Of a stretch of 64,000 nucleotides of DNA, positions 6,741-48,667 are shown piece by piece. The position numbers and the translations under genes are program-made. How positions within the stretch are numbered: the first letter of the stretch is position 1; each line of letters starts with the position of its first letter. This stretch comes from a virus. The DNA lies in the IMG/VR virus record IMGVR_UViG_3300028030_000007, positions 24,342 through 88,341 of that record; one strand, written 5' to 3'. The notes under the pieces are model-generated. The model did no database searches and had not been told where the DNA came from. It saw only the letters and a program-made list of their open reading frames with translations.

Positions 6741-9700
6741 ATGGGTATCGGACCTTACACCACTTATGCTCCCCCTGGCGTATACACTAGAACGATTAAC
6801 GAACCAACCGGTGGAGTTTCTACCGGTGGAGTTAGAATCCCCGCTATCATCGGAACTTCTGTAGAATACATTTCACAGTATAACTATGAAATGATCAGAG
6901 GTTCCTCGTCTGTTGCAGATACTCAAGTTTTCAATGAAAACGTTGCATACAGATGGGTTACTGGCGGAACTGATGATAACCCAAAGTTTGGACAGCAAAA
7001 CGGATCACTCACTAAGTTTAGAGTGGCTAACTACCCGATCGTTGATGGTAACGGTTCTGGGACTGTGGCTATTAACTCTTCATCAATATCAGTCACTGTT
7101 AACGGTGAAGAAGTTCCGGTTCAATCAGTTAACGGTAGCTACGGAATAGTTTCCCTTGTTGCTCCTACTACGACTACTGATGAGGTTCTCGTAACTTATT
7201 ACTTTGATCGTAAAGATACCCAGATCACTGATGATGTATCTGACCAGGTTACGTCAGGTGTTGCTTCATTGACCTCTAGTAAAGCCGAGTCATACGAGAT
7301 AACTAGCGGTACGAATGAAAACCTCTACGTTAAGGTTGATGACACCACTGATGTTACGATACCGCTTACTGCTGGTACAAGATCTGCTCAACAGATCGTT
7401 GATGATATTAATCTAGTCTCAGCTACCACTGGGTTATCAGCAACCGTTCACTCTGATAATAACAATGAAAACAGAGTGAAGCTCGTTGCCACAAGTAATA
7501 TAGAAATTCTGAGCACGACCAATAATGCGGCTTTCGCACTTGGTTTCACCTCAGGTCAATATTCTGGCAGAAACCTCGTTTTCACTGTTTTCAACGGTCC
7601 GATCGTTGATGGTTCAGACGGTGGTATTACCACGACTGATCCGACTAAGGTCACAGTGACGATTAACGGATCCACTGTTGCAGCTTCTGAAGTTAACGGT
7701 TCTACTAGAGCGGTGACGCTACCCTACGCCCCGGCTTCCGGGTCTACGGTTAAAATTACCTATTACTTCAATACCTTCCAGGATACGTTTGACTATCTTC
7801 CAAATTCAAACATCCTTACTATCAACTCAGTAGGTATCGCTCCTGATAACACTGATTATACTGAGGGTAACGATTTTGTCATAGTTAATGATGGTGATCA
7901 GTCCTACATTAAGTGGGGGACTAGCGCTCTTGTTTTTGAGGGGACCACAACTGGAACCAAGCCTTTCAACACGCAAGAGACTATTAATCTTATCGATGAT
8001 AGAATCTACATGGAACAGTGCTCTGATTACACTGATCCATCAACGAATACGGTTTCATTGGTTAAGTTCTCTCTTCAGTCAATCCCCACTACCGGTAATG
8101 GAAGAGACACGGTACTTGATTCATCTACCTATAATTCAGTCTCGAATGGTAGAATTGGGCTGACGACTGATAATCCCGGTCTTATCAAGGCTTACGTCGG
8201 TAAAGATGTTATCGACGCGATGTCACGATCTAACGTGACAATTAAGAGTGTTGATGGGTCTAACGGGATCATTGAGCTTGTTGACGCCATACCGAGTGGT
8301 AGTAAGGTATTCGTTACTTACTGGTACAATAGAATATCTGACGATGAGTACACACTTACTTGTACTACGTCCGGAGCATCTGGTATTGGTAAATACAAGA
8401 TCACCGATAAGTCTGGTAACACGATATACACCACGAAGTTTGGTTCAAAGTCTGGAATGTCAAAGGATGTGAACTGGCCCTCCGGCGTTGAGTCAACCCC
8501 TGATGCGTTCCACTCTGGTGGGAACCCGGTGAATGAAACCGTTACGGTAACGTTCGATAACACGATTTATCCTGCTACTCACGCTACCATAACGACTGAT
8601 CCTGGTCCATTTGATATTTATTCAACAAAATCAATCTTCGGACCGATTCTTGTTGATAACGCTACGGTTGCTGGTGCTAATCTTGGACATGGATCAGTAG
8701 CTACATATATTGGTGATCTTGTTGATAACCCTGGATCAATGTCGTTCACTGCAAGTGACTATCTTTCAATAACAGTGGATAGCATTGATATCGATCCAAT
8801 AGCACTGTCATCAGCTACATCACTTGCAAATGTTGCTGCATTGATCGATACTGCCATTTCTAATGACACTCAGACTCATAGTGATGGATCCGACATTTTC
8901 GCTGCAGGAACTGTTGCAACATTAGTTACAGCGGTGAATGAGCTTAAAGCTAATTACAATCATCACGTGAGTAATGAGGATAATAGTGGTGGTCACGCTA
9001 CACCAGCAAATGATTATCATAACAACCTAGGAACTGCAATATCTACTGCAGATGCTACTGATTGGGCCACTGCTAAAGCTTTGATAGATGAAATAGCAAC
9101 GGCTTATGAGTTACATAGAGTTGATACTCCTACTTTGCATGCCGCAGCTGATAATACAAATAAATTGGATCTAACATTAACATCAGATACTCCATACGAT
9201 GCAGTTGACAAATTAAATGATATAATAAGTAAGTTTAATAGTCACATTTCAAATGATTCCGGTGTATCTGGTTATCATACAAATGCTGACACATTCAACG
9301 GAGTGATAACAACAGCGGTGTTTTCACCTAACAATCTTGTAGATAGCATTACTTATGGATCACAAGGATTCTTGGTGATCAAGAGCAATGAATCATCAGG
9401 ATCAGATTACTACGTTAACGTAAAAATTAATAAGCCATCAGGCAGTGGACAGTCAGATGCTTCTGCTAAGGTTGGACTTGACACTACCAGAGAAGCTAAC
9501 GCGTATGATTGGTTAGCAGTCGATTATCCTGCATTTGTTTACGGAACGAAAACCCCGAGCTTTAACATTCAGTCACTCGTTAGCGATTCACTGAGTCTTG
9601 GTATCGATGGACTTTCGTTCTCCGTTCCTCTTGTTACAGGATCAGCTAGATCGATAAGATCAGTTGTTGATAGGGTTAATGCATCATTTGTTGGTGCAAC

Positions 9701-11801
9701 TCAATCATCAACGATCCAATTGATGGCATTGTCCTCACTCATTCTTACATTAAACAATGTAAAGAGCGTATACAATGTGCATGAGGCTAGCGTAACATAT
9801 CATAATGCACCCGGTGGAACAAACCCGGTAACAGCTGCAAATGCCACTGATTTAGCTACATCTATTACGCTAGTTAATGACATCAAGTCTATGTTTAATA
9901 ATCATATAGTTGAAGCTGGCATTCACAAAACTGATGATTTGAACTCAATAACAACAGCTGATGCAACAGATCTTGGATCTGCTTGGCTGCTTGCCGCTGA
10001 AATAGTTGAATTATACAGTACACATATTGTATTAACAGTATATCATACTAATCCTGACACTACTGATGTCGTGTCTGTCTTCCTTGGTCAGTACGTAGCA
10101 GAAATTGGTGTACATGCTCATGATAACATGCTGAAATTAACATCACTAACGGATTCTGTTGAATCACAAGTTTATATCGGTAGTGGCCTAGCCAATGATG
10201 TCCTTGGTTTAACACAGGGTACTTATAGTAGACATCAACCTACTGCTGATGATATTATTAATTACCTTGATCCTAGTTCAAATATCATTTATCCTAGGGT
10301 TATACTTGGAACGAATGGCAAGTACATCGAGATTAACTCACTGACAACAGGAACATCATCGGCTCTCACCGTTAACTCTTTCGCTACATCAGCGTTCACC
10401 GATGAGTCCGGAATTGGATTCGTGCAAGGATCAACGAGTGATATTGGTGAAAACGCCACAATGGCCTACAACGTCGGATCATCTGACGCGGCACATGGGT
10501 CATCTGGTGTTGGCATTCCCGACCAGACTTACAAAGATGCAAGAACCGGTCTTACGTTTACCGTTCTCAAGCCTTCAACCGGTGATTACACGAACGGTGG
10601 ATCATTTACACTGATAGTGTCAGACACCGCTACTACTGACGCGGCGATCCCCGTTAAGTCAATTGCTGGTGTTGAGATGACGGTATCTGACACCACTGAT
10701 GTCGCGTTGAACTCAACGGCTATCGTTAAGACCTACAAGAAGAGTGGGTACGAGCCCGACATAGGCGATATTTACTACATCTCCTATGATTATGAAAAGA
10801 CTGACATGAGCCCGACTCTTGTTAATAGCACGAGCCAGATTCAATCTCAGTTCGGATCATCAGACACTACGAATCAACTTTCGTTAGCTGGTTCAATTGC
10901 TATGGCTAATGGGGCCGAATTAGTGGCGTTGGTTCAGGTTCAAAAATCGACCGGTTCAGAATCCGCTCCTTCAACGGCGTTCATGGCAGCGATCGATGAA
11001 CTTAACAAGCCGATCGATGGTTACAACAAGGTTGATGTGATCGTTCCTATGTCAACCGACACGTCGGTTTACAGTTACTTGAGCCGAAATTGTTCTGTGA
11101 TGTCATCGCCTAGAATGGCCAGTGAAAGAACCGGGATAATCGGCGTTGCAGCTGGAACCTCAGAATCAACAGTTAAGGCGCTTGCCAAGTCAATTAAGTC
11201 AGAGCTGATCACCCTGGTTTACCCGGACATGTTCATCGTAACCACTGTTGATTCCTATGGTAATCAAAGTGATAACCTAGTTGACGGAACTTACGCTGCT
11301 GTGGCAGTGGCTGGAATGTCCTGTAACCCACAGAATGACGTTGCCACACCGTGGACCAGGCAACGAATTTCTGGATTTAAGGGAATAGGAAGGTACATTG
11401 ATCAGGTTACTGCTAATAGCATAGCGGCAACCGGAATTACTGTTATCGAGGATAGCAGTAGCGGAATGATCATAAGGCATGGTCTTACGACTGATGTAAC
11501 TACTATTCTGACTAGAACTCCGACTGTTATCACGACGAAGCATTTCGTTCAGATTAAGCTGCGAGAAACCCTGGATCCTTACATAGGCTTGAAGCTTGAT
11601 GGATCGCTTCTGTCATCCGTTGATCGCTCAGTTAGGGATTTGTTTGAATACCTGATGTCGTCAAAGATCGTTAACACTACTGAGACGATAAACGTCGGTA
11701 TTGATGAATCGGACCCAACGATAATTATGGTTGAGGTGATATACTCACCTGTTCTTCCTGCTGAGTACATTGTTGCGACAATGCAGATTAAAACTAGGTA
11801 A
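6741..11801 (+). CDS. Tail sheath protein, very large (1686 aa)
   Basis: The N-terminus (YAPPGVYTRTINEP) is the classic start of contractile tail sheath proteins, and the last about 300 residues (CNPQNDVATPWTRQRISGF through the final KTR) match the conserved sheath C-terminus. Sheath subunits stack around the tube and contract to drive it into the cell. T4 gp18 is 659 residues; this one is 1686. The excess includes three beta modules (about residues 95-158, 282-343 and 470-532) and a His-rich helical repeat insertion (about 729-1134). The insertion (about 8700-10290 in DNA) uses more A/T-ending codons than the flanks. A GAGG ribosome site lies before the ATG. The next genes (11888 onward to the tube) fit the usual sheath-tube order. 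Confidence 0.93.
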   Translation: MGIGPYTTYAPPGVYTRTINEPTGGVSTGGVRIPAIIGTSVEYISQYNYEMIRGSSSVADTQVFNENVAYRWVTGGTDDNPKFGQQNGSLTKFRVANYPIVDGNGSGTVAINSSSISVTVNGEEVPVQSVNGSYGIVSLVAPTTTTDEVLVTYYFDRKDTQITDDVSDQVTSGVASLTSSKAESYEITSGTNENLYVKVDDTTDVTIPLTAGTRSAQQIVDDINLVSATTGLSATVHSDNNNENRVKLVATSNIEILSTTNNAAFALGFTSGQYSGRNLVFTVFNGPIVDGSDGGITTTDPTKVTVTINGSTVAASEVNGSTRAVTLPYAPASGSTVKITYYFNTFQDTFDYLPNSNILTINSVGIAPDNTDYTEGNDFVIVNDGDQSYIKWGTSALVFEGTTTGTKPFNTQETINLIDDRIYMEQCSDYTDPSTNTVSLVKFSLQSIPTTGNGRDTVLDSSTYNSVSNGRIGLTTDNPGLIKAYVGKDVIDAMSRSNVTIKSVDGSNGIIELVDAIPSGSKVFVTYWYNRISDDEYTLTCTTSGASGIGKYKITDKSGNTIYTTKFGSKSGMSKDVNWPSGVESTPDAFHSGGNPVNETVTVTFDNTIYPATHATITTDPGPFDIYSTKSIFGPILVDNATVAGANLGHGSVATYIGDLVDNPGSMSFTASDYLSITVDSIDIDPIALSSATSLANVAALIDTAISNDTQTHSDGSDIFAAGTVATLVTAVNELKANYNHHVSNEDNSGGHATPANDYHNNLGTAISTADATDWATAKALIDEIATAYELHRVDTPTLHAAADNTNKLDLTLTSDTPYDAVDKLNDIISKFNSHISNDSGVSGYHTNADTFNGVITTAVFSPNNLVDSITYGSQGFLVIKSNESSGSDYYVNVKINKPSGSGQSDASAKVGLDTTREANAYDWLAVDYPAFVYGTKTPSFNIQSLVSDSLSLGIDGLSFSVPLVTGSARSIRSVVDRVNASFVGATQSSTIQLMALSSLILTLNNVKSVYNVHEASVTYHNAPGGTNPVTAANATDLATSITLVNDIKSMFNNHIVEAGIHKTDDLNSITTADATDLGSAWLLAAEIVELYSTHIVLTVYHTNPDTTDVVSVFLGQYVAEIGVHAHDNMLKLTSLTDSVESQVYIGSGLANDVLGLTQGTYSRHQPTADDIINYLDPSSNIIYPRVILGTNGKYIEINSLTTGTSSALTVNSFATSAFTDESGIGFVQGSTSDIGENATMAYNVGSSDAAHGSSGVGIPDQTYKDARTGLTFTVLKPSTGDYTNGGSFTLIVSDTATTDAAIPVKSIAGVEMTVSDTTDVALNSTAIVKTYKKSGYEPDIGDIYYISYDYEKTDMSPTLVNSTSQIQSQFGSSDTTNQLSLAGSIAMANGAELVALVQVQKSTGSESAPSTAFMAAIDELNKPIDGYNKVDVIVPMSTDTSVYSYLSRNCSVMSSPRMASERTGIIGVAAGTSESTVKALAKSIKSELITLVYPDMFIVTTVDSYGNQSDNLVDGTYAAVAVAGMSCNPQNDVATPWTRQRISGFKGIGRYIDQVTANSIAATGITVIEDSSSGMIIRHGLTTDVTTILTRTPTVITTKHFVQIKLRETLDPYIGLKLDGSLLSSVDRSVRDLFEYLMSSKIVNTTETINVGIDESDPTIIMVEVIYSPVLPAEYIVATMQIKTR

Positions 11802-24800: not shown

Positions 24801-25142
24801 AGAGGTATTCTTGACATATTGCCCAAGTCAACGATAAAACAAATCTTGACTAGAAAACCAGAACTTAACGATAGTGCGATAAAAAGTTTGAAAGCAGAAA
24901 AAGAACAGCTTAAAAAAGAACTTGAAGATGCAAGAATAGAGGGTTGTATAATTGAAGATGGTGGAGTTGAAGATGCGTGTACAATAATAGAAAAACAAAT
25001 AGCGATAATAGATAAAAAGATAAGAGATAACACCACACAAAGTGTAACGTCAGCAGTAGTGACACAGAAGAGTTTCGTGGACGCGATCAATGAACATCTA
25101 ACGCGCGTTCTAGAACAAGCAGCGAAAAAGGCTAATAAATGA
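21813..25142 (+). CDS. Probable baseplate hub protein with long charged C-terminal extension (1109 aa)
   Basis: The N-terminal about 500 residues have the look of gp27/gpD-type hub proteins: a beta-rich start (GKCQVKVDFNKFVTSISTDC), a FWGLVMNINKSWSNGVTNIS strand pair, and later SGSFTIPMRPELRPGFPIWV then YYIRSISHAYSIGGQATTTI, as in hub domains that sit above the spike. The rest (about 500-1109) is unusual: Lys/Arg-rich segments, a coiled coil near 720-815, and a C-terminal acidic coiled coil. It follows the lysozyme-domain gene and precedes PhoH and the spike. An AAGG ribosome site lies before the ATG. Confidence 0.72.
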   Translation: MNRPFISLAPDAYISLQGSTDTVTCGKCQVKVDFNKFVTSISTDCDVNSPPGSASIQMQIPDTELNQFMIDDEFIVKPMMEIEIFGKGYYSIGGTPRYYRIFWGLVMNINKSWSNGVTNISISCSDMLKWWELTYAVMNPAYITPEGSSAGNFQFWGNKLAGMNPYAVIIAMAKDSMSDFLLTTGSFTSYKPEIGPEKRAIGKYMLEAMEYWQLKFGEIWNNLVLYGVSGTPYQFTDSMIGRSPVFLSKSIFENEMSHTLFNRETTRFRIQPTEVAAYKRELARVVDIKFFQQEAQTKLQIAQTARDQIMYEFYQDPNGTIIFKPPFYNMNVIPNKPVSWINDFEIMQEQITESGNEVYTHVTSNGHAFGGIMDYGMNDEILTPNTGVIDYHLLKQFGWRKTNVVCEWCGNPRKLFYYLLDYLDRQNSKRVSGSFTIPMRPELRPGFPIWVPSHDAFYYIRSISHAYSIGGQATTTINVIAKRGKFIAPKNIGMMTSHVIHKPPEKKLSRREEMEKAKREKQKTNRMSGNKYFAYNKEKQRKARWAKEKHEARGNNLAFKITFPEDVGSSIGFTSGDKSSGDANAPMIIRDPETGKIMGYPNVVMVYRRSLDNVRRARLKEETQLKTYGKSAKFKGQKKYSLPNYTYDATVGRTARMIATDKKEKIVEQLRNNRYEIGFDNSGLYDYAVDKSKIINEITVVNASSVTWGDESAAPQGYSSYSDPKLKEMKEKLSKRKNDIIQEIKLAKKQKSALEKQKSKAYRNLAIVKGKWKGLRDEKKIAEKPDVKKASEDVKSISDKTNDINDKLIKLKEEYSDIMFSLSNVGYGAKDINIVIRPVSDEFGFEVIGHNRYGRGSFIDIGRLRVESLDESNGSSKPSTEEVNNIRIQFAAGSSMASMSDPMTSHNFSAVKSAEMLNELQPSDYKTGASAYSGDKINFTNSRTYTDQINRERTYAGKVIYADVDSIMKAKGLDQLKPTINKDIYMTADCDCGMMKRGILDILPKSTIKQILTRKPELNDSAIKSLKAEKEQLKKELEDARIEGCIIEDGGVEDACTIIEKQIAIIDKKIRDNTTQSVTSAVVTQKSFVDAINEHLTRVLEQAAKKANK

Positions 25143-26422
25143 AGAAAAACTACGTGATCGATACTAACGTTCTTATTCATGACCCTGACTGTATATACAA
25201 ATTTGAAGATAATAACGTATACATACCGATATACGTTATTGAAGAAGTAGATAATTTCAAAAAAGAGTCTTCTGAGAGAGGAAGAAATGCAAGAAGGGTA
25301 ATACGGATCATAGATGGTATGTTATCATCGAATGATAGACTAGAAAACGTTAGTATAAATGATGGACAACTTTTCCTTTATGTTCCTGATTTTCTAAATT
25401 TCGATACAAAGGTTGCTGTAGACAGTAATAAATATGACTATAGAATATTACAAACTGCTATTGAAATAAAACAAAAATCAGATTTGAAAACCATAATGGT
25501 ATCTATGGACGCTAATCTAAGGGTTAGAGCCCAAGCTATGAAACTTCCATCACAGAATTATAAAAATAACTCTGTTAGTGTGAATTCAATAAAGAAAGAT
25601 TATGAAATACACTATGTTGATGATAATACAATAGATCTTCTTTACTCAAAACAAACAGTTAACATTCCCTCATTGCAATTAAAAAACAATGAGTATGTAA
25701 AACTCATATCATCAGAAAACGGATCTAAAACGGTCCTTTGTAGAAATCTTCCTGGGGGACAATTATCAAGAATACAAACAAGTTCCGAAATTTGTGGAAT
25801 AAAACCACTTAATATGGAACAACATTTTGCACTTGACGCTTTGCTAGATCCGGCGGTAAACTTTGTAACGCTGATAGGGAAAGCTGGAACAGGAAAGACG
25901 TTGTTGGCTCTAGCTGCAGCTTTTCAAGGTGTAAAAAGAAAGCAATATACATCAATACTCGTAGCACGACCGGTAATCCCTATGGGTAAAGATATAGGAT
26001 ACATACCGGGGGATATCAATGAAAAAATGCAGCCGTGGATGCAGCCTATTTATGATAACATTGACATATTATCTATGAATGATAATGAAGACTATAATTT
26101 GTATTTCAATGATGGAACGATAAAAATAGAGCCTCTTACCTATATAAGAGGTAGAAGTATACCGAATCAATACATGATAATAGATGAGTCACAGAATCTT
26201 ACCCCTCATGAGGTAAAAACAATACTAACTAGGGCTGGTGATGGGACTAAAATAGTTCTTACCGGCGATCCAAATCAGATAGACAACCCATACATGGATT
26301 CAACATCAAACGGTCTTTCCGTTACGATGAAAAAGTTTTTAGGGAATGAAATATTTGCTAGTGTCGTTTTGCATAAGAGTGAAAGAAGTAAACTAGCCGA
26401 TATTGCCGCTTCCATTCTCTAA
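25139..26422 (+). CDS. PIN-PhoH family ATPase/RNase (427 aa)
   Basis: Two domains are clear. Residues 1-150 form a PIN nuclease domain (YVIDTNVLIHDPD with acidic residues, later MVSMDANLRVRAQA). Residues about 215-427 form a PhoH ATPase with Walker A GKAGTGKT (near 247-254), ARPVIPMGKDIGYIPG, Walker B YMIIDESQN and a TGDPNQID sensor. PIN-PhoH proteins (PhoH2) are ATP-dependent RNA-unwinding RNases in bacteria. Many phages carry phoH, but its role in infection is unclear. Here it sits between hub and spike genes and overlaps the hub stop (ATGA), so it is expressed with the tail operon. Confidence 0.92.
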   Translation: MKKNYVIDTNVLIHDPDCIYKFEDNNVYIPIYVIEEVDNFKKESSERGRNARRVIRIIDGMLSSNDRLENVSINDGQLFLYVPDFLNFDTKVAVDSNKYDYRILQTAIEIKQKSDLKTIMVSMDANLRVRAQAMKLPSQNYKNNSVSVNSIKKDYEIHYVDDNTIDLLYSKQTVNIPSLQLKNNEYVKLISSENGSKTVLCRNLPGGQLSRIQTSSEICGIKPLNMEQHFALDALLDPAVNFVTLIGKAGTGKTLLALAAAFQGVKRKQYTSILVARPVIPMGKDIGYIPGDINEKMQPWMQPIYDNIDILSMNDNEDYNLYFNDGTIKIEPLTYIRGRSIPNQYMIIDESQNLTPHEVKTILTRAGDGTKIVLTGDPNQIDNPYMDSTSNGLSVTMKKFLGNEIFASVVLHKSERSKLADIAASIL

Positions 26423-38597: not shown

Positions 38598-41500
38598 ATG
38601 GCTTCTACTCCTGTTGTATCAGTTTTTGATAATAATTATGTGGAAAGCTTGAGCTTTTACACGAATAGCCAGGATGTGTTCATTCATGGAATCATAGATA
38701 GTAATGCTGTTGATGTACAAGTTTCAATAGATGGAGGTCAATACACATCAGACAGTTCATTAGTTAAAATTGATGGAACGTCAATCACGGTTCCTAACCC
38801 AGATAGTTTCCAAGATGGCTATGAACTTCATGACGGGTCGAATGAGATAAAAATAAGGTCAATAGACATAAACGGATCTGCGAGTCAAGCGGCTGTTGTG
38901 TCTATCAATTATATATCATCATCCCCTACCATGTATTACCCACCGTCTGGTGTTTATGTAAAAAGGAATTCGAATGACGTTGAGGTTTTCTGGTCAATAA
39001 CTGGAAACGTATCAAAACTTGTCGGGTTTAACGTCTATGCGTCAACATTGCCCGGTGGGCTAGGTTCTGGATATTTGAAACTTAATCTAAACACCGTACC
39101 TAGTGATTCAATATATGATACTAAAGCACAATATGATGAAATAGACTCAATATCATACACTAGTATTGACACTACTAACGGATATTTAAATATAAAATCA
39201 TCAGTTAGTAGCCTGATTAATCCAACAAATGAAACTACAAAAACAATAAATTCTATAGATGTATTGGATTATAGCGCTGTAAAACTTGACGTTACTGTAT
39301 CTGAAACTACGCTAACTAACGTATATAGATTTGTCCATGATAGGTCTGGTCTTGCGTCAAAAGGGATCTTAAACAGTGACACGTTTGACGCCGTTAACAC
39401 TGAGGATGATATATACTATGTTGTTACGGCACTATATAAGGATTCAAATAATAACGTGTATGAAAGCGCATACTCTATCGAAATATCAGGGAAACCACTT
39501 AATATGGACTCAACGATAGTTGGTATAGACATAAGATCCGATAGTGATATATCGACTAGCTACATTCAATATATTCAATCAACGAATCCAGAACTTTCAT
39601 TGATTCCCGGATCGACGATAAGAGAGATTCACATTGAACCGTTGGCTAATGAGGTTCAAAAAGTTTATTTCCTGGCTGACTTCGTTCATCGATCGAAATC
39701 ATTCCATGCTTTACTTCAGATTGATGATCCGAATAGAACAGGGCAGTCAATACCGGTCGATAACTCACAGTATAAGATAAGTTTAAGGAACGCTCTTAAC
39801 ACATCAGATAACGTAGCGGTTCAAACTTTGATAGACGCGGCGTTTTCTTCCCTATCAGAAAACTTCGGAGTGACAAGGGGTGGCAAGACCGCCGCGTCTG
39901 TTATCCAAACGTTTTACACTACCACAAGACCCACGAAAGATATCAAAATATCCGTTGATACGATAGTCGGTTCATCGTCATCACCACAGTCCCCTAGATT
40001 CTATTCTAAGGGAGTGTACTATATGTATTATTCAGATATTGATAGCTATTATAATTCTGATGAAGATAGATATGAAATCGATGTTGAAATGTACGCGGAG
40101 TGGCCGGGATCATCTGGGAACCTGCCAGCCGGTGCCATAGACTCAGTGCTGTCGAATGATATCGGTTTTAAGACCGTGAATAAAAACGCGGCGTATGGCG
40201 GCGCAGATGAGATGACAAACACGCAGCTCGCTGAAGCGGCCATGAGAAAGCTAACGTCCCTTGATACCGGCACTATAGGCGGGTATATGGACACCGCCGC
40301 GTCTGTTCCTGGAGTGACTGACGTGATAGTCGTAGAGTCCGGAAGCGACTATATGATGCGTGATTGGGATGAAGTTAGGGGAAAACACATTGGAGGGAAA
40401 GTCGATGTGTACGTTCGCGGGTCAATAGATAGAACGATCACCCAAATGTTCGCGTTCAAGTCCATGGAGGCTAAGTCCATGAGGTTTGACGTGATCGACC
40501 CGGTAAATCTTATCTTTAGATCATTCGATACTAACTTAAACTCTAATAATACAATAGTAAAACTAATTAGTCTAACAAATAACACAGTATCATCTAGTTA
40601 TGATATAGTTGGATACAAGATACTTGACTACAATACTATCCAACTATCGAGCACTGTGTCTCAACCAGTCACCACAGTGGATGATTTTGTTGTTGGCAAT
40701 TACCTATATAGTGTAAATAAATATATTCCAACTATTCAGCCTATCGAAAGAATAGTGTCACTTACTGGTGAGATCACCGGTCAATTGGAAGAGGATATTG
40801 ATTATAAGCTATATAAATCAGAGGATCTGCTTCTTTTGGGTGGTAGTACGAAAGCGTCAGACTACGTTTCTGTTACGAATTTGAATTCCCAGCAAATTCA
40901 CGTATCTGACGAGAGCCACGTTCTCGTCGATTTGTTTGAACAACCGTTAGGGAAGGTTGGTGTAGACGTTTCTTCTGTTGTTGTGACAGATTCTGGGTCG
41001 ATCACCACATACAAGGGATACGGTTATCCAGACCCGGATTATGAGGTCGATGATACAGGGAATCGAGTAACAATAAGAAGAACGGTCGGGTCTGCTATAC
41101 CGAATGGGTCTACTGTTTTAATATCATATGACTATAATGAAAACTTTGTTATCGAATACGTAGTTAACGATGTTGTTCAACGAGTGGATGATGAGATACA
41201 GAAAATGCGTCATACAACAGCGGATGTTGTAGTAAAGTCGGCGTTTGAAAACTATGTGGATCTGGCTTGCACTGTCATTTTGCGCCAGGGAGCTTCAAAA
41301 TCTGAGGTCGATAGTCAGATAAGAACTGAGCTTACAACACTTTCTACGTCAAGAAAAATCGGTGAGCCAATATATCAATCAGACATTATAGGACGTATGG
41401 AAAACGTTACCGGTGTTGACTTTATCGTCCAACCACTGCAAAGATTTACGTTAGGCGATGGATCGATGAGATTCATGGAAACCGTCATGGAAACCATGAT

Positions 41501-41882
41501 CTACATACCTCAACTTTCTAAATATAACAATAAAGTTTATATGTCATCGGAGCCACTTATATATTCAACCGTTGAGTATGGGTCAAATGATGGACAATTC
41601 TCGGCGGTTTATGTTGATGATATCATGATGACAATGGTAACTAATCTTAATAAAATAGGAGAGAGTAACAAAAATTGCTATATCTCCGGTAGTGATGGTG
41701 TTACTATAAGTGGATACTCAGGTGATACATCAAACAGAGCGTTCATATCAATAAATGACGATGATGAGCACGAATACAGATGTACATATGTCATATACGG
41801 TGATACACAAACCATAGACATAGACACATCAGATATGGAGTACATAGTGCCAGGTAATGTATCGATTACCTATACATACTAA
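38598..41882 (+). CDS. Baseplate J-like wedge protein (1094 aa)
   Basis: The core near residues 505-640 has the baseplate J (Mu gp47/T4 gp6) signature: AGAIDSVLSNDIGFKTVNKN, then GGADEMTNTQLAEAAMRKLT, then VPGVTDVIVVESGSDYMMRD. The wedge dimer surrounds the hub and opens during contraction. The N-terminal about 280 residues contain Ig- or fibronectin-like modules, and near 800-860 is a beta module (NGSTVLISYDYNENF) shared with the sheath and the 29592 protein. A C-terminal extension of about 150 residues is beta-rich. At 1094 residues it is much longer than T4 gp6. It starts six bases after the gp25-like gene. Confidence 0.85.
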   Translation: MASTPVVSVFDNNYVESLSFYTNSQDVFIHGIIDSNAVDVQVSIDGGQYTSDSSLVKIDGTSITVPNPDSFQDGYELHDGSNEIKIRSIDINGSASQAAVVSINYISSSPTMYYPPSGVYVKRNSNDVEVFWSITGNVSKLVGFNVYASTLPGGLGSGYLKLNLNTVPSDSIYDTKAQYDEIDSISYTSIDTTNGYLNIKSSVSSLINPTNETTKTINSIDVLDYSAVKLDVTVSETTLTNVYRFVHDRSGLASKGILNSDTFDAVNTEDDIYYVVTALYKDSNNNVYESAYSIEISGKPLNMDSTIVGIDIRSDSDISTSYIQYIQSTNPELSLIPGSTIREIHIEPLANEVQKVYFLADFVHRSKSFHALLQIDDPNRTGQSIPVDNSQYKISLRNALNTSDNVAVQTLIDAAFSSLSENFGVTRGGKTAASVIQTFYTTTRPTKDIKISVDTIVGSSSSPQSPRFYSKGVYYMYYSDIDSYYNSDEDRYEIDVEMYAEWPGSSGNLPAGAIDSVLSNDIGFKTVNKNAAYGGADEMTNTQLAEAAMRKLTSLDTGTIGGYMDTAASVPGVTDVIVVESGSDYMMRDWDEVRGKHIGGKVDVYVRGSIDRTITQMFAFKSMEAKSMRFDVIDPVNLIFRSFDTNLNSNNTIVKLISLTNNTVSSSYDIVGYKILDYNTIQLSSTVSQPVTTVDDFVVGNYLYSVNKYIPTIQPIERIVSLTGEITGQLEEDIDYKLYKSEDLLLLGGSTKASDYVSVTNLNSQQIHVSDESHVLVDLFEQPLGKVGVDVSSVVVTDSGSITTYKGYGYPDPDYEVDDTGNRVTIRRTVGSAIPNGSTVLISYDYNENFVIEYVVNDVVQRVDDEIQKMRHTTADVVVKSAFENYVDLACTVILRQGASKSEVDSQIRTELTTLSTSRKIGEPIYQSDIIGRMENVTGVDFIVQPLQRFTLGDGSMRFMETVMETMIYIPQLSKYNNKVYMSSEPLIYSTVEYGSNDGQFSAVYVDDIMMTMVTNLNKIGESNKNCYISGSDGVTISGYSGDTSNRAFISINDDDEHEYRCTYVIYGDTQTIDIDTSDMEYIVPGNVSITYTY

Positions 41883-41893
41883 GACATTTTTAG

Positions 41894-41901
41894 TGTATAG
41901 T
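41894..41901 (+). promoter_or_regulatory. TGTATAGT box abutting a start codon
   Basis: TGTATAGT at 41894-41901 ends four bases before the ATG of the 1947-residue gene, where a Shine-Dalgarno site would be expected but is missing. If TATAGT is a -10 element, transcription would begin at or just within the start codon and give a leaderless mRNA. The same arrangement is seen at 13520-13533 and, as GGTATAGT, at 48668-48681. Confidence 0.35.
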
Positions 41902-41905
41902 TTGT

Positions 41906-44900
41906 ATGGCTAGCTCATATGATATAATGTCCATGTCGGACAGAACAATATTTGTAAATGAAGGAACGATAGTTAAAAAATCAGAGGCTATAATAACAGG
42001 ATCATCGTTTGATATAGTAAGCCCAAATACAATCGATCTTAATACAACCGTGGGTAGTGTTGACGGTTATTCAATATATATAGCTACGTTAGGCGAAACA
42101 GAAATCCTAGCCGCTTCTGGTAGTCAGTTAATACTAGATACAATACTAAATATAACCGATGAATATGCTACCCAATCTAACCTAATAAATAGCACAAATT
42201 CCCTTGTAAATTGTTTAAACTATCACTTAAATGACATCTCGTCCCATGATAATACATGTGATAGCATATCAGGAACATGTAATAGTTTATCGACATGCGT
42301 CACTCTGTTAGGTCAGATTCAACAGGCTCTAATAGATCATATAAACAATAAGAATTGTGAGTGTCATTGTGTCGTATCAACAATCCCTGTTTTCAACTCG
42401 ATACAACCTACCCTAAATTCCTGTGAATATGCATATAAGGAAACGTTGAAAGCTATAAACGACCACTTGGACGATTCAACGTGCCATCTGTTTCTTGACA
42501 CGACAGCACACACATACTTAGTTGATTACTCTCACGTGAACGTAACGTCCATGTCTCACAACTGGACGATCTACAATATGCACACCGGACAATGGGCGGA
42601 CAGCCCATCGGACGTCACGGTAAAGATAAACGGAACTGAGGTTACAGCCCAGTATGTGTTTGGGAAGATAGGGGCCGTTGTTCTTCCCTCAAAGCCTGCT
42701 CCTACAGATACGGTAACGATTACATACTGGTATTTAGTTAACGGCGGTTCCTACCTTCAAACATGTGAATGGGAATCGCAGACCAATCAGTGGGAAAACT
42801 TCGCCAAATCTGGAATTCCATCCCATAAATACAGACTCCGTGGATACTTAGTTGATCCGTCAAATAAAACAGAACTGTTGGCATCACCGATTGAGCCAAC
42901 ATCCGTTGGATGGAAATACAAAGCGATAGAAAAAGAATACGCGGCTGTTTTGAATGATCCAACATCTCTCATTCAAAACATGTGGGACGGTGCTTATACG
43001 GCTTTGGATGAAACTATAAAAGAGTACACAACAAAGGTCAACAATAAAACAACGTCCGGTGATTATAAAACTATAAATCTGCCTATTTACACCGATAGCG
43101 TAGTGTCAGTAGCGTGGAGAAATCGAATAACCTCGGTTAATCTTACCGGTGATTTTACAGGGGTGTCAGTTCTTGTAGTAAATGAGAGTCGATGCGCACT
43201 GTTTGGATATTTACAGGCAGAGCCTAGTAACCTAAAAACAGCAATAAGGACGGCTAATGATATAAAACACGCATTTAATGCGCACATTCTTGAGTCGGAC
43301 TCGCACAAAAAAGTAGACACCACTGATACGTTAATTTATGCTGACGCTAGTGATCTAGACTCTCTTGTTCGTCTTGTCGATGAACTTACAACAAAACTAC
43401 CAGCGCACTCAATTAACACAGATTATCATGTAAACGCGGATCCCACTCCAACGTCTTATGGACCGGTAACGGATCTGCAGTCATCTATAGACAACCTGGT
43501 GCTACTTCGATCAAGATTCAATGATCATATGTCGGTGAATCTTGTTCACATAGTTCAACCAATTACAGGTCAAGTTGATAAACCGACTTCAATCGGTATG
43601 TTAACAAATAAAGATCGTCTAGAGTATTCAGACGGATGGGACTTGTATCCCATTGATTTTGATGAAGAGACATCATTTCGTACATATAGCATAGATGGAA
43701 AAATATATCTATATAAATCCGGTGATACACAACCTATAATTTCAGGAAACATTAATACAGATATTTCAGATATCCCGATACAACTCGATGAACTACATCA
43801 GTTAGTATATGGATCAATCATGGGATCTTCTGTGTCGGAGTGGACGTTGGTAATGACTAACGTAAACCCGGTAGTAGATACCAACATACTAAAGACTAAA
43901 TCCGTTACATACGATGGTAGCATTAAACCACAAGAAAGCGATCCTCCGTGGTTTAACTTTGGACATTCTGATCATATCATAGATTCCAGTGAATTATCAA
44001 TTCTAAACTCTTATATAGATGAAAATCTTGACCTAACATCTTATGGATACTTCAGCGGTTATTATCGATTTGAACCAATAATAAATGAAAAGGCAAACGT
44101 AGCCATAGAAGCTGAAATCTCAGTTCCATGGAACGCTTCAGGAATCAGTAATAAATCAAACGGACTGTATATAAACAATCGTGACATCTATACATCACTT
44201 AACTTCTTATATTATGACCCAATTTCAGCGTCAGTAACAGGAACGGTCCCTAGCTCTTCATTTATAAATGTTAGCACATATGACAAACTATCAATTAGGA
44301 TCGATGATTCATATATAGTAGACATAGTAAATGGTGGCCCGGCAATAACATCGTTAACTAGTCTAGTTAGTTTTATAAACTCTGAATACGGTGACACGAT
44401 AGCGTATTCAAAAACTGTTGGGGCTAACACATACTTAAACATTAGATCGACCACAAAAGGGCACAACTCTAGAGTTTCAATATATCAAAGTGAAATAGCG
44501 TCGAAAACTGGTCTTGCCGTTGGTGATTATTATGGACAAGACTTTGAGACTATCCCACAATTTTCATACTCACCGTTTAAACTACCAACAGATCTTGGAT
44601 GGACTAAAAACGGGTCTCAACAGTCATACGTTAGATCTGAGTCCTTAGTATTGAATGACACATCAGATTCCGACTATATTAGCTATGCTAACTATATCCC
44701 AACACAAGTAGATAATATATTTGAAAGTAATATATCATGGTCTATAGGATTCATGATAAACATTGAATCGTATACAGCTGGCGACACTGTAGCTCCCGGT
44801 GAAGATCTTCTCGGTCCGATCGTATCGATAGATGAAGGCTCGTCCGGAATAACCGTTGATTTTGCGTTTACTACAAACGGTCTTTCCATTCTATCATATA

Positions 44901-47749
44901 ATAGCGCGACAAGTTCTGTTGATTATATAGGAACAATAACAGCGGACGTGACAAATGGATTTCATTCAATTGAAATCATGTCCAATAAATCATCACATAT
45001 AATCTTAATAATAATAGACGGTGTTGCATCAGCTCCGTTACCACTATGGTTATTAAATAGTGGGGTTGGTCCAAGAATGATATCGTTCGGTAGCGGAATG
45101 TCAACTATTGGCGGTATTGATTTCAGTAAATCAAAATCCGTGTCAAAATTTAGAAGTATATACGCATTCGATAACACTAACTTTGCGTACTCAAGTTATG
45201 TGGATAAACTTTACGTCGGGCTATATAAAGGCGGAAATCCGTCATATCTAGATTCATATCATTACATGAAATTTGACTATACGTCAAATCATACGTATAG
45301 ATTAGTCTTGTCACCAATAAAGACAGTTGATTTGTTCATTGACGGATCTGACGTCCCCTCACTCTCCATACAGTATGATAAAATATCATTCACACCATCC
45401 AAGTACGGAATACTAAACTTTGTATCTGGAGTGGATAGATATGTTGCGTTTGGATCATTTGACAACACAACAGTATCAAAAATGGTGGTATCTAGCGTCA
45501 AATACTCTGTCGGAATACTTAATGATTATAACTTCACACCACAAAGAGATCATTTACTAAATTATGCTAACATTATAACATCTCCTGACCATCTGTTTAC
45601 TACAGTATCACACGGTCATTACAACACAAGCATAATATCAAACGGAACTCCATCGGATGAGTTTTTATCTGATAATAGTGTAGATTCCTATATAAATTTG
45701 ATGAAAGGAACACCAATAATAGAAAAAACTCAAAGTCTTGAGTATAGAGGTGGGTTAAAAAAGACAGTAACAAAAACATCAAGTGCACTACCTGAAAACT
45801 TTATCTACAGTGGCGGGTACATACGAAACTTTGTTAATGATTCGTCAACGGTAAGTTGTACAATAGACACCGTTTCTAACGTTCAAACGTCTCTCCAATC
45901 AGAGGCTAATGCATTGAAAGCCGCATATAACATTCATATACCAGATACAACCTATCATAATGTAGCTGACGGCCTTAATAGCATAACATCCCCTAATAGC
46001 ACAAATCTAGCTAGTTTAATAACACTATTGAATGAGATGAAGGGTGATATTAATAATCATATATCAGATACAACTTATCATTATTTTATAGATAGCATAT
46101 CAATTACAAGCCCGAACGCTACTGATTTGTTGTCATGTATAACACTATTCAATGATATAAATGAGGTTTATACACGTCACATAGACTCCGGTAAAGTGCA
46201 TAATTATGATGACATTTCAGACACAATAACAACTCCTAACGCGACATCAGTTCAAGAGGCGGCTGTTTTAGTGCAGTCGATGCTAATTCCGTTTAGATAT
46301 CACGGTGATGAAACCTTAACCGGTTTCGCGTGGCACCACAAGCAAAAAGATTTAAACACCGGAATCGGTAATAGCATAATCGGTCTTGGACAATTTAGAG
46401 TGTACTCTACGTCACATCTTGATATGATATATGTTTATGAAATGAATCTGGATGTTGGTGATGTTATCAGACCGATAGATGGTGTAAACGCTGGCACTAC
46501 ATTTACTATATCACAAGTTATTGACGCTAGCGCGCGTCTGTATAGACTATCATCAAGTATGGTGCATGAAGCTTCAAATAGATATTTTGAGATATACAGT
46601 GGGTCTGTTTCATCTATACAGAAATCGTCTATTATTACCATATTGAAAAAATTGATCAAGGCTTATGATGACCATTATATCAATGAAAATTATCATTATA
46701 ACCCACACGGAATCCATGTAGATGACATTGATTTTATAACAGACTCGGACATCATAAATAAATCGAACGAGCTTAAATACGCGTTTAATGAACACCTACT
46801 ATATAATCTAGAGCATAAACAAAAAGACACTACTAACGTAGGGTCGTCCATAGTATTCAATGATCCTGTTCAAAACGGTATTGATTGTGCGAATTCCCTT
46901 AAAACCGTGTTTAATGAACATTTAGGGAACACAAATTCTCACGTTTTATCTGATTATGTGAATGTCATTGATGACACATGCACAAGTTCTAACTTCATAT
47001 CATTTGTAAACAATTTCAAGAAGTTACATAACCAGCATTTATCACAAGTCATAGATGAATCGAATGTTCACGTAACGAATGACACGACGAACATCATATC
47101 AACCGTAGATGCGACAGATAATGATACCGCACTAACATTACTTAATGATGTATATCACAAATTACTGACGCACTTCACACAATCAGGTGTCCATGGATCG
47201 TCAGTGTTTATCAGTTACTCACTGCCATCAAGAATACTGTATGATAGAATAAAAATATGGGAAAAGGAAACCGGTGACGGAGCCGATTTGTCAACAATAA
47301 GCGATGATGACACACTATACATGAATGGACAGTTCTTTAATACAACACAGACTGTTACTTATGGAATATATGAAGGTGCGGATTTTAACACTGAGTTCGA
47401 ATACTCAGATGATCATGGTGCGTATACATATGATCATAAAATACAATCAACATCATCATTTGAATTTACTGTTGTGGTGTCACCAGATGAATCTGAACTT
47501 GAGTATGGGTTCACGATGGATAATGGGAAGTTCATTAAGTTAAAGTTAGGTATCACACAGTTGGAAATTCCTGTTGTAAGATTACTTGACGCCAATGATA
47601 AAATATTGTATGAAGAAGTGTTTGAATGGTGGATGGGTACTTATATATATACAATAGATTATAATAGTAATGATAATACAATAGGCTTAACAATAAATAA
47701 ATCTTATGGTGATGACGGTGGTAAAGGTGATGACGGTGGTGGAAAATGA
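41906..47749 (+). CDS. Giant distal tail/baseplate protein with His-rich helical repeats (1947 aa)
   Basis: The largest gene in the window. At least four stretches (about residues 100-205, 435-555, 1325-1475 and 1575-1770) repeat a unit of the form L-x-N-D-(I/L)-K-x-x-F-N-x-H-(I/L) followed by YH, D and a T-(N/D)-A-T-(D/S)-L turn. The sheath insertion has the same unit. The first stretch is also rich in Cys (CECHC). Between them are beta domains, including one (about 240-280) with NGTEVTAQY and VTITYWY like the sheath modules, and LamG-like or carbohydrate-binding-like sandwiches (about 950-1250). The C-terminus is Gly/Asp-rich (GDDGGKGDDGGGK). Likely a fibre-like or baseplate-peripheral protein that may bind host or metal; no enzyme motif is seen. 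Confidence 0.75.
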   Translation: MASSYDIMSMSDRTIFVNEGTIVKKSEAIITGSSFDIVSPNTIDLNTTVGSVDGYSIYIATLGETEILAASGSQLILDTILNITDEYATQSNLINSTNSLVNCLNYHLNDISSHDNTCDSISGTCNSLSTCVTLLGQIQQALIDHINNKNCECHCVVSTIPVFNSIQPTLNSCEYAYKETLKAINDHLDDSTCHLFLDTTAHTYLVDYSHVNVTSMSHNWTIYNMHTGQWADSPSDVTVKINGTEVTAQYVFGKIGAVVLPSKPAPTDTVTITYWYLVNGGSYLQTCEWESQTNQWENFAKSGIPSHKYRLRGYLVDPSNKTELLASPIEPTSVGWKYKAIEKEYAAVLNDPTSLIQNMWDGAYTALDETIKEYTTKVNNKTTSGDYKTINLPIYTDSVVSVAWRNRITSVNLTGDFTGVSVLVVNESRCALFGYLQAEPSNLKTAIRTANDIKHAFNAHILESDSHKKVDTTDTLIYADASDLDSLVRLVDELTTKLPAHSINTDYHVNADPTPTSYGPVTDLQSSIDNLVLLRSRFNDHMSVNLVHIVQPITGQVDKPTSIGMLTNKDRLEYSDGWDLYPIDFDEETSFRTYSIDGKIYLYKSGDTQPIISGNINTDISDIPIQLDELHQLVYGSIMGSSVSEWTLVMTNVNPVVDTNILKTKSVTYDGSIKPQESDPPWFNFGHSDHIIDSSELSILNSYIDENLDLTSYGYFSGYYRFEPIINEKANVAIEAEISVPWNASGISNKSNGLYINNRDIYTSLNFLYYDPISASVTGTVPSSSFINVSTYDKLSIRIDDSYIVDIVNGGPAITSLTSLVSFINSEYGDTIAYSKTVGANTYLNIRSTTKGHNSRVSIYQSEIASKTGLAVGDYYGQDFETIPQFSYSPFKLPTDLGWTKNGSQQSYVRSESLVLNDTSDSDYISYANYIPTQVDNIFESNISWSIGFMINIESYTAGDTVAPGEDLLGPIVSIDEGSSGITVDFAFTTNGLSILSYNSATSSVDYIGTITADVTNGFHSIEIMSNKSSHIILIIIDGVASAPLPLWLLNSGVGPRMISFGSGMSTIGGIDFSKSKSVSKFRSIYAFDNTNFAYSSYVDKLYVGLYKGGNPSYLDSYHYMKFDYTSNHTYRLVLSPIKTVDLFIDGSDVPSLSIQYDKISFTPSKYGILNFVSGVDRYVAFGSFDNTTVSKMVVSSVKYSVGILNDYNFTPQRDHLLNYANIITSPDHLFTTVSHGHYNTSIISNGTPSDEFLSDNSVDSYINLMKGTPIIEKTQSLEYRGGLKKTVTKTSSALPENFIYSGGYIRNFVNDSSTVSCTIDTVSNVQTSLQSEANALKAAYNIHIPDTTYHNVADGLNSITSPNSTNLASLITLLNEMKGDINNHISDTTYHYFIDSISITSPNATDLLSCITLFNDINEVYTRHIDSGKVHNYDDISDTITTPNATSVQEAAVLVQSMLIPFRYHGDETLTGFAWHHKQKDLNTGIGNSIIGLGQFRVYSTSHLDMIYVYEMNLDVGDVIRPIDGVNAGTTFTISQVIDASARLYRLSSSMVHEASNRYFEIYSGSVSSIQKSSIITILKKLIKAYDDHYINENYHYNPHGIHVDDIDFITDSDIINKSNELKYAFNEHLLYNLEHKQKDTTNVGSSIVFNDPVQNGIDCANSLKTVFNEHLGNTNSHVLSDYVNVIDDTCTSSNFISFVNNFKKLHNQHLSQVIDESNVHVTNDTTNIISTVDATDNDTALTLLNDVYHKLLTHFTQSGVHGSSVFISYSLPSRILYDRIKIWEKETGDGADLSTISDDDTLYMNGQFFNTTQTVTYGIYEGADFNTEFEYSDDHGAYTYDHKIQSTSSFEFTVVVSPDESELEYGFTMDNGKFIKLKLGITQLEIPVVRLLDANDKILYEEVFEWWMGTYIYTIDYNSNDNTIGLTINKSYGDDGGKGDDGGGK

Positions 47750-48097: not shown

Positions 48098-48667
48098 ATG
48101 AACATAGAAAGATTCATTCCCATAAAAAAGGGTGAGATTTTTTGGACGTTAACACTACCGGACGGTAGTGAAAAATCCGGGAAGTTAATAAACAAAGTAA
48201 CGTTGGACTCATCGGTCGTCATCGCTAGGCTTATGAGCGGGGCGTCAACTAACGGTGTTGTAGCTTTAGCAGTAGGAACGGGTGATGGGGCTTGGGATCC
48301 GCTTAACCCACCGGCGGCTACTAAGTATCAAAGATCACTCTATAATGAGATTTCAAGAAAAGCATATAGTTCAACGCAATTCATAGATTCGTCAGGTACG
48401 GTGTCTGTTGTCCCCACTAATATCGTCGATTACATTTTTACCTTCGGCGCTTCAGAAGCCGTAGGTCAACTAACTGAAATGGGTCTTCTCGGTGGTGATA
48501 TAAACTCAAACATGGCCATTACAAACCCGATAACACCCCCTAACGGGTCATACGATCCAACGGTCGATATAACAGGGAAAGACGCTTTGATTAACTACAT
48601 CACGTTCCCTGTGATCACTAAACCAGTCGGATCAACACTTTCGTGGACATGGAGACTTACTTTCTAG
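48098..48667 (+). CDS. Small tail/fibre-associated structural protein (189 aa)
   Basis: The sequence pattern is familiar from phage tail and fibre-base proteins: an early GVVALAVGTGDGAWDPLNPP, a paired Asn/Arg helix (YQRSLYNEISRKAYSS), then IVDYIFTFGASEAVGQLTEM and GLLGGD, with a final strand. In other phages these motifs occur in short proteins whose C-terminal part forms the beta domain of a distal tail component. No receptor-binding motif is seen. It is the last structural gene of the operon; a TATAGT box and an unrelated gene follow. Confidence 0.6.
   Translation: MNIERFIPIKKGEIFWTLTLPDGSEKSGKLINKVTLDSSVVIARLMSGASTNGVVALAVGTGDGAWDPLNPPAATKYQRSLYNEISRKAYSSTQFIDSSGTVSVVPTNIVDYIFTFGASEAVGQLTEMGLLGGDINSNMAITNPITPPNGSYDPTVDITGKDALINYITFPVITKPVGSTLSWTWRLTF

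Follow-up and report, generated by a model that had tools for sequence, protein, structure and literature searches.

Small fibres on phage heads are the closest described relatives of the sequences considered here. The head fibre protein gp8.5 of phi29 forms a homotrimeric helix-turn-helix supercoil (PMC6542822, PMC7602432), gp45 of phage B2 was found to be a homotrimer by cryo-EM (PMC11654681), and gp21 of crAss001 is a trimer with a C-terminal domain that resembles gp8.5 (PMC10172136). The head fibres of phi29 aid contact with the cell (PMC7602432). The trimeric fibres of T4 (gp37) and of R-pyocins contain six-His iron sites with the motif HxH (PMC6116203). Ig-like domains are promiscuous and shared by proteins of phage heads and tails, sheaths among them, and extra sheath domains are known to be positioned away from the tube (PMC9230969). 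The present analysis concerns a His-rich repeat in two tail proteins of one virus and finds that each copy makes up a third of a new domain, widespread among phages and probably displayed on their surface.

The window, which is the whole stretch of 64,000 nucleotides that was analyzed, comes from an IMG/VR record (IMGVR_UViG_3300028030_000007) of an 88-kb virus with the gene set of a contractile tail. Its tail genes encode a sheath protein, a baseplate-J protein (38598-41882), and a giant protein (Table 1). The C-terminal 350 aa of the sheath match the phrog_2839 tail sheath family (E 2.5e-27). Eight proteins of other viral contigs are orthologous to the giant from end to end (26–29% identity over 1556–2001 aligned residues), and these nine giants are colinear. 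No match to the whole giant was found among named phages by tblastn, and a search of viral_contigs with the whole giant or the whole sheath as the query found nothing. The longest giant (L085, 858-8780, minus strand) has 2641 aa, and 26 units were detected in it, 15 of them in a single unbroken run. A gene for a PhoH-like protein (25139-26422; phrog_2765, E 3e-103) lies inside the tail gene region. Near the 3' side of the giant gene, a 189-aa protein (48098-48667) has homologs with 55–60% identity downstream of three other giants (L089, L038, and L036) and is better conserved than the giant itself.

Table 1. Features of the sheath and giant genes in the window. Units are named by the residue number of their first His.
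Feature	Coordinates	Strand	Description
Tail sheath protein, 1686 aa	6741..11801	+	phrog_2839; relatives in LR745208, Tunturi_5
Sheath module S1 (site 1)	8892..9302	+	units 742, 792, 835; common to L022, L026, L088 only
Sheath module S2 (site 2)	9708..10070	+	units 1014, 1055, 1095
Conserved sheath core	10746..11789	+	phrog_2839 match
Giant distal/baseplate protein, 1947 aa	41906..47749	+	directly after baseplate-J gene
Giant module A	42152..42511	+	units 107, 145, 187; residues 83-202
Ig-like domain common to giant and sheath	42578..42805	+	hhalign vs sheath copies 7056-7208, 7623-7883
Giant module B	43217..43570	+	units 460, 501, 541; residues 438-555
Giant beta-rich region, partly ConA/LamG-like lectin fold	44222..45172	+	residues ~773-1089; AlphaFold, Foldseek
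Second giant-sheath domain ('IN-like')	44261..44608	+	sheath copy 7305-7577; hhalign 93%, E 4.3e-7
Giant module C	45863..46225	+	units 1344, 1385, 1425; residues 1320-1440; AlphaFold model has three helices
Giant module D	46229..46840	+	unit 1466, inserted beta domain, units 1590 and 1630; residues 1442-1645
Beta-strand insert of module D, between first and second helix	46385..46600	+	residues ~1494-1565; AlphaFold strands between helices of units 4 and 5
Giant module E	46847..47218	+	units 1672, 1711, 1756; residues 1648-1771

The first-pass annotation of this DNA had described a His-rich repeat common to the giant and the sheath, placed at least four blocks of it in the giant at 42200-47215, and suggested a profile search with a composition check. 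Reciprocal profiles confirmed the sharing, with 15 units of about 40 aa in the giant (four blocks of 3, 3, 4, and 5 units at 42152-47218) and six units in the sheath. A profile built from the giant alone scores the sheath at 73.0 bits (E 1.8e-23) and one built from the sheath alone scores the giant at 64.6 bits (E 1.1e-20), far above the best scores of shuffled sequences (at most 9.6 and 11.5 bits over 6000 sequences shuffled globally or locally). None of the other open reading frames of the window exceeds 7.1 bits with the unit profiles. Moreover, a tblastn search of the giant against its own record matched the sheath independently (E 1.1e-18, 35% identity). The first-pass annotation had offered no family name; no Pfam domain scores above its gathering score in the giant, and none was found for module C of the window. 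DUF1722, DUF2460, SPOR, and other Pfam entries gave low scores below the cut-offs, a sequence search of the PDB returned chance matches only (e.g., triosephosphate isomerase), and a literature search for the repeat found no description.

Among 256 non-identical units, the consensus is DATDLATAITLANELKAKYNAH-x6-H-x3-D-x2-N, such that a helix is followed by H-x6-H-x3-D-x2-N, and the spacing of tandem units is constant at about 41 residues. The paired His at fixed spacing on helices that had been proposed from the letters alone are thus present, as an H-x6-H pair at the helix end. Local alignments may conceal mismatches, and the first His (H1) was recounted with a profile limited to positions 1–20, which includes no His column; by this count, H1 is at the expected place after the helix in 156 of 162 units. 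The six exceptions comprise two units with a His a few residues later and four single-helix proteins of the head-fibre type, which have Ile. The second His (H2) is most commonly found at +7 (106/162 units) and at +2 in one unit. Of the aligned units, 206 of 211 have the Asp and 153 of 158 have the Asn. A 932-aa protein of another contig (L181, 8894-11689, minus strand) has 18 profile matches with odd spacing (about 26, then alternately 49 and 58 residues) and perhaps represents a divergent form of the unit.

Three repeats, rather than one, are the unit of function and evolution, a feature that the first-pass annotation missed. Relatives were gathered in two sets, one with the repeat consensus and alignment, and the other with DNA patterns of one helix, which are blind to unit number. 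Among complete proteins with at least three units, the unit number is a multiple of three in 35 of 43 proteins of the first set and in 45 of 49 proteins of the second set, 39 of which have exactly three. The corresponding P values (1.3e-10 and 1.5e-17, calculated as if the proteins were independent) overstate the certainty because orthologs are not independent, although the second set is diverse. All 11 proteins scored as having two units were found by eye to have a degenerate or frame-split third unit, and the true exceptions are a few proteins with 4, 5, or 7 units. A three-unit protein of L163 (4017-4519) is encoded in two overlapping frames with one and two units, perhaps because of a frameshift. 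Five small proteins of 79–112 aa (in L102, L103, L118, L119, and L160) have a single unit.

The same rule applies within the giants. Modules A and B consist of three units each in every giant, and the blocks of four and five units in the window correspond to an unbroken run of nine in the orthologs L042 and L083, which lack the split of module D; the beta domain in the window lies between units 4 and 5 of this run. The arrangement of 3 + 3 + 9 is retained even where a beta domain interrupts the last run. Module A of the window differs from the other modules in being unusually rich in Cys (nine among its 120 residues), and these Cys could possibly form disulphides or act as additional metal ligands. 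Among the 12 modular sheaths, which share 43–47% identity with that of the window, gain and loss involve whole three-unit modules. Site 2 has His modules in all 12 sheaths, and the layouts are a single module of three units at site 2, one such module at each site, or six units at site 2. By eye, the two sites are alike in that each comes after the helix of a small domain, and the two domains are similar. The first module of the L043 sheath is split by two inserts. No modules occur anywhere in the genomes of LR745208 and Tunturi_5, which have related sheaths.

Over 100 non-identical proteins of the environmental phages collected carry these modules. The carriers include sheaths, giants encoded next to the baseplate-J gene, a neighbor of the giant in other phages, and small proteins. 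The neighbor is a module-bearing protein of 800–931 aa, encoded directly upstream of the giant in relatives; in the window record no such gene was found, and the baseplate-J gene abuts the giant instead (38598-41906). A modular sheath and a modular giant occur together in the phage of the window and in eight other viral contigs (9/9 contigs with a giant). Small module proteins are encoded directly after the major head protein gene in L010 and L029, and five other contigs (L028, L031, L033, L045, and L081) have module genes within the head region, close to genes for a major head protein, portal, or protease. Module proteins of head gene clusters also occur on contigs in which no modular sheath or giant was seen. 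The modules are present on tails and probably on capsids. Because they are found among head genes as well as on tails, the property common to these proteins looks, most simply, like exposure on the virion surface.

An AlphaFold model of one module (C), based on 66 aligned modules, is compact and confident (pLDDT 91, pTM 0.85), with helices at residues 5-26, 50-69, and 90-109, linkers that are also ordered with confidence, and no strands. In these 66 modules, five His are invariant (the H1 of every unit and the H2 of units one and two) and the Asp of the first two linkers is near-invariant; H2 of the third unit is often absent. A Foldseek search with the module against the PDB and the BFVD viral models gave nothing below E 1, a result that may owe something to the poor performance of Foldseek with small helical folds. 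Had the module been an ordinary up-down three-helix bundle, matches to known structures would probably have appeared, and a parallel bundle with return linkers is therefore the likely arrangement. H1 lies 11–38 degrees from the center of the hydrophobic face at 100–103 degrees per residue, and 64 degrees at 97. A run of 1151 residues of the giant gave low overall confidence (pLDDT 55, pTM 0.32) and was relied on solely for the helix positions and the beta-rich region. Across most of its length, the latter has a pLDDT of 64–86 and matches CBM40 and legume lectins in Foldseek (E ~1e-5), which is a likeness of fold only and is consistent with a role of the giant as an adhesin. Neurotoxin binding domains were also matched, but these reflect the common ConA/LamG fold and give no information on toxicity.

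On balance, we consider it reasonably probable that the module is a compact, single-chain pseudo-trimer with a cluster of H1 residues on its axis, a bound metal, and an accessory job as an exposed surface attachment. Three consecutive units would fold together, each contributing a helix of about 20 residues and a linker of about 20 residues that brings the chain back so that the next helix starts alongside. The three helices would form a closed, roughly three-fold bundle, the single-chain counterpart of the trimeric head-fibre helix. H1 appears to occupy the core position held by Ile or Leu in that helix, such that the three H1 residues would converge on the axis at one end of the bundle, with H2 and the Asp of the linkers nearby. 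It is plausible that this cluster holds a metal ion that would pin the bundle. Tandem helical repeats with constant spacing, in runs of up to 15, could also be read as an open-ended solenoid with units in a row and a free unit number, as in HEAT or TPR proteins. We regard this as highly improbable, given that the unit number is far too often a multiple of three, that a three-unit piece folds confidently by itself in AlphaFold, and that the sheaths gain and lose units by threes. The leading rival instead keeps the three-unit domain and dispenses with the metal. Under this explanation, which we hold to be possible but not favored, the His, Asp, and Asn are purely structural, with H1 capping the helix and hydrogen-bonding the returning linker, and H2 and Asp pinning the linker. 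The confident order of the linkers fits such a role, as does the distribution of these residues: H2, Asp, and Asn sit in the linker, the strict His is found only in linker-bearing forms, and in the linker-less head-fibre forms the position of H1 is occupied by Ile. However, the His is conserved at a core-facing position more strictly than helix capping usually needs. In helix capping, Asn or Ser would be expected as substitutes for His.

The first-pass annotation had also proposed module exchange inside the phage, and as a general claim this is not supported: the identity between giant and sheath modules is 0.309 within a phage vs 0.307 between phages, and the sharing is therefore old. In a tree of 62 modules, those from corresponding positions of the protein mostly cluster together, whichever phage they come from. 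The giant and sheath further share an Ig-like domain (hhalign 95% and 94% with the two sheath copies, E 3.9e-8 and 1.3e-7) and the second, IN-like domain, which indicates ancient domain sharing that is wider than the His module. Module C of the window is a particular case, with an identity of 0.34–0.36 to sheath modules compared to 0.287 to modules C of other giants, and it groups with module S2 of the window sheath (37% identity). The tree support for this group is low (0.62); recent exchange between giant and sheath in this phage lineage is rather improbable, and only module C may, faintly, be suspected of derivation from a sheath-type module. Mutual binding of the sheath and giant, or binding of both to a third component (for example, a fibre or a sugar on the cell surface), might instead explain why both carry the module, and the constant co-occurrence of the two modular proteins and the lectin-like domains of the giant are in line with this. 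Such an explanation is unlikely, although slightly less so than recent exchange, considering that the module is found in head-cluster proteins on contigs without a modular sheath or giant in sight, that giant-sheath similarity shows no excess within a phage, and that the sheath relatives LR745208 and Tunturi_5 lack the module. The pseudo-trimer explanation would make the modules stiff, self-contained surface attachments, set into loops of the outer domains of the sheath, between the Ig-like and lectin-like domains of the giant, and in stand-alone proteins of the head cluster. Their accessory job would probably be adhesion to a cell surface or stabilization of the virion surface, rather than linking of the sheath to the giant.

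The closest relatives by sequence are small phage head fiber proteins. Of the 66 modules, 18 match the family phrog_6994 ('head fiber protein', 67 aa) at E<=0.01 (best 1.9e-6), and the unit aligns with its members from Pseudomonas and Microbacterium phages (hhalign 96%, 63% identity over 24 aa). The module helix corresponds to their C-terminal helix, in which Ile takes the place of H1. The head-fibre protein also gave weak ankyrin-type matches, which involve chiefly its N-terminal part rather than this helix. The link continues from phrog_6994 to B2 gp45 (E 4e-4) and from B2 gp45 to PF11133 (E 3e-10). The former match is weak, and the bridge from the modules to the solved trimeric fibres is indirect; a direct hhalign comparison of the unit with the B2 gp45 group fails (9%), and PF11133 (Phage_head_fibr) is not among the Pfam hits of the 66 modules. 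One and three are the common unit numbers, as expected of a trimer and its tandem version. A fuller statement, which we offer tentatively and judge a little short of even, is that this undescribed and widespread domain is a single-chain pseudo-trimer with a metal site of five or six His that arose by tandem triplication of a head-fibre helix and was moved as a whole over the capsid, sheath, and baseplate of large environmental phages. This would provide a possible case of evolution from oligomer to tandem repeat, and would connect homotrimeric head fibres to single-chain tail modules in a way that can be tested. The analysis also names a recurrent, uncatalogued part of phage virions, together with a rule for reading it (units in threes), and indicates that very large sheaths also carry additional domains that are not Ig-like.

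Compared with the known systems, the modules resemble the phrog_6994 head fibres of Pseudomonas Otagovirus and Microbacterium phages in having a helix of about 22 residues, and the phrog_6994 genes lie in the head gene cluster, as do those of several small His-module proteins. Unlike the modules, these fibres are single short chains with one helix, no linker, Ile at the H1 position, and no His pair, whereas the giant and sheath modules have three tandem units. The PF11133 fibres (phi29 gp8.5, Shigella phage B2 gp45, and crAss001 gp21) are helical, three-fold, and located on the virion surface, as proposed for the modules, and are related via phrog_6994; however, they are homotrimers of separate chains, have no direct profile match to the modules, and, in B2-type sequences, lack the His motif. 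Ig-like phage domains resemble the modules in occurring in capsid-cluster, sheath, and baseplate-region proteins and in being inserted as whole domains, but they are beta-sandwiches, whereas the modules are helical. The HxH fibres share with the proposed module architecture the placement of paired His from three equivalent segments on a three-fold axis. In those fibres, the His are two residues apart and come from three separate chains, whereas in the modules the second His is mostly at +7, at the helix end, and the three segments belong to one chain. If a metal is bound, the modules would represent a second, unrelated solution to the His-metal pin of phage fibres.
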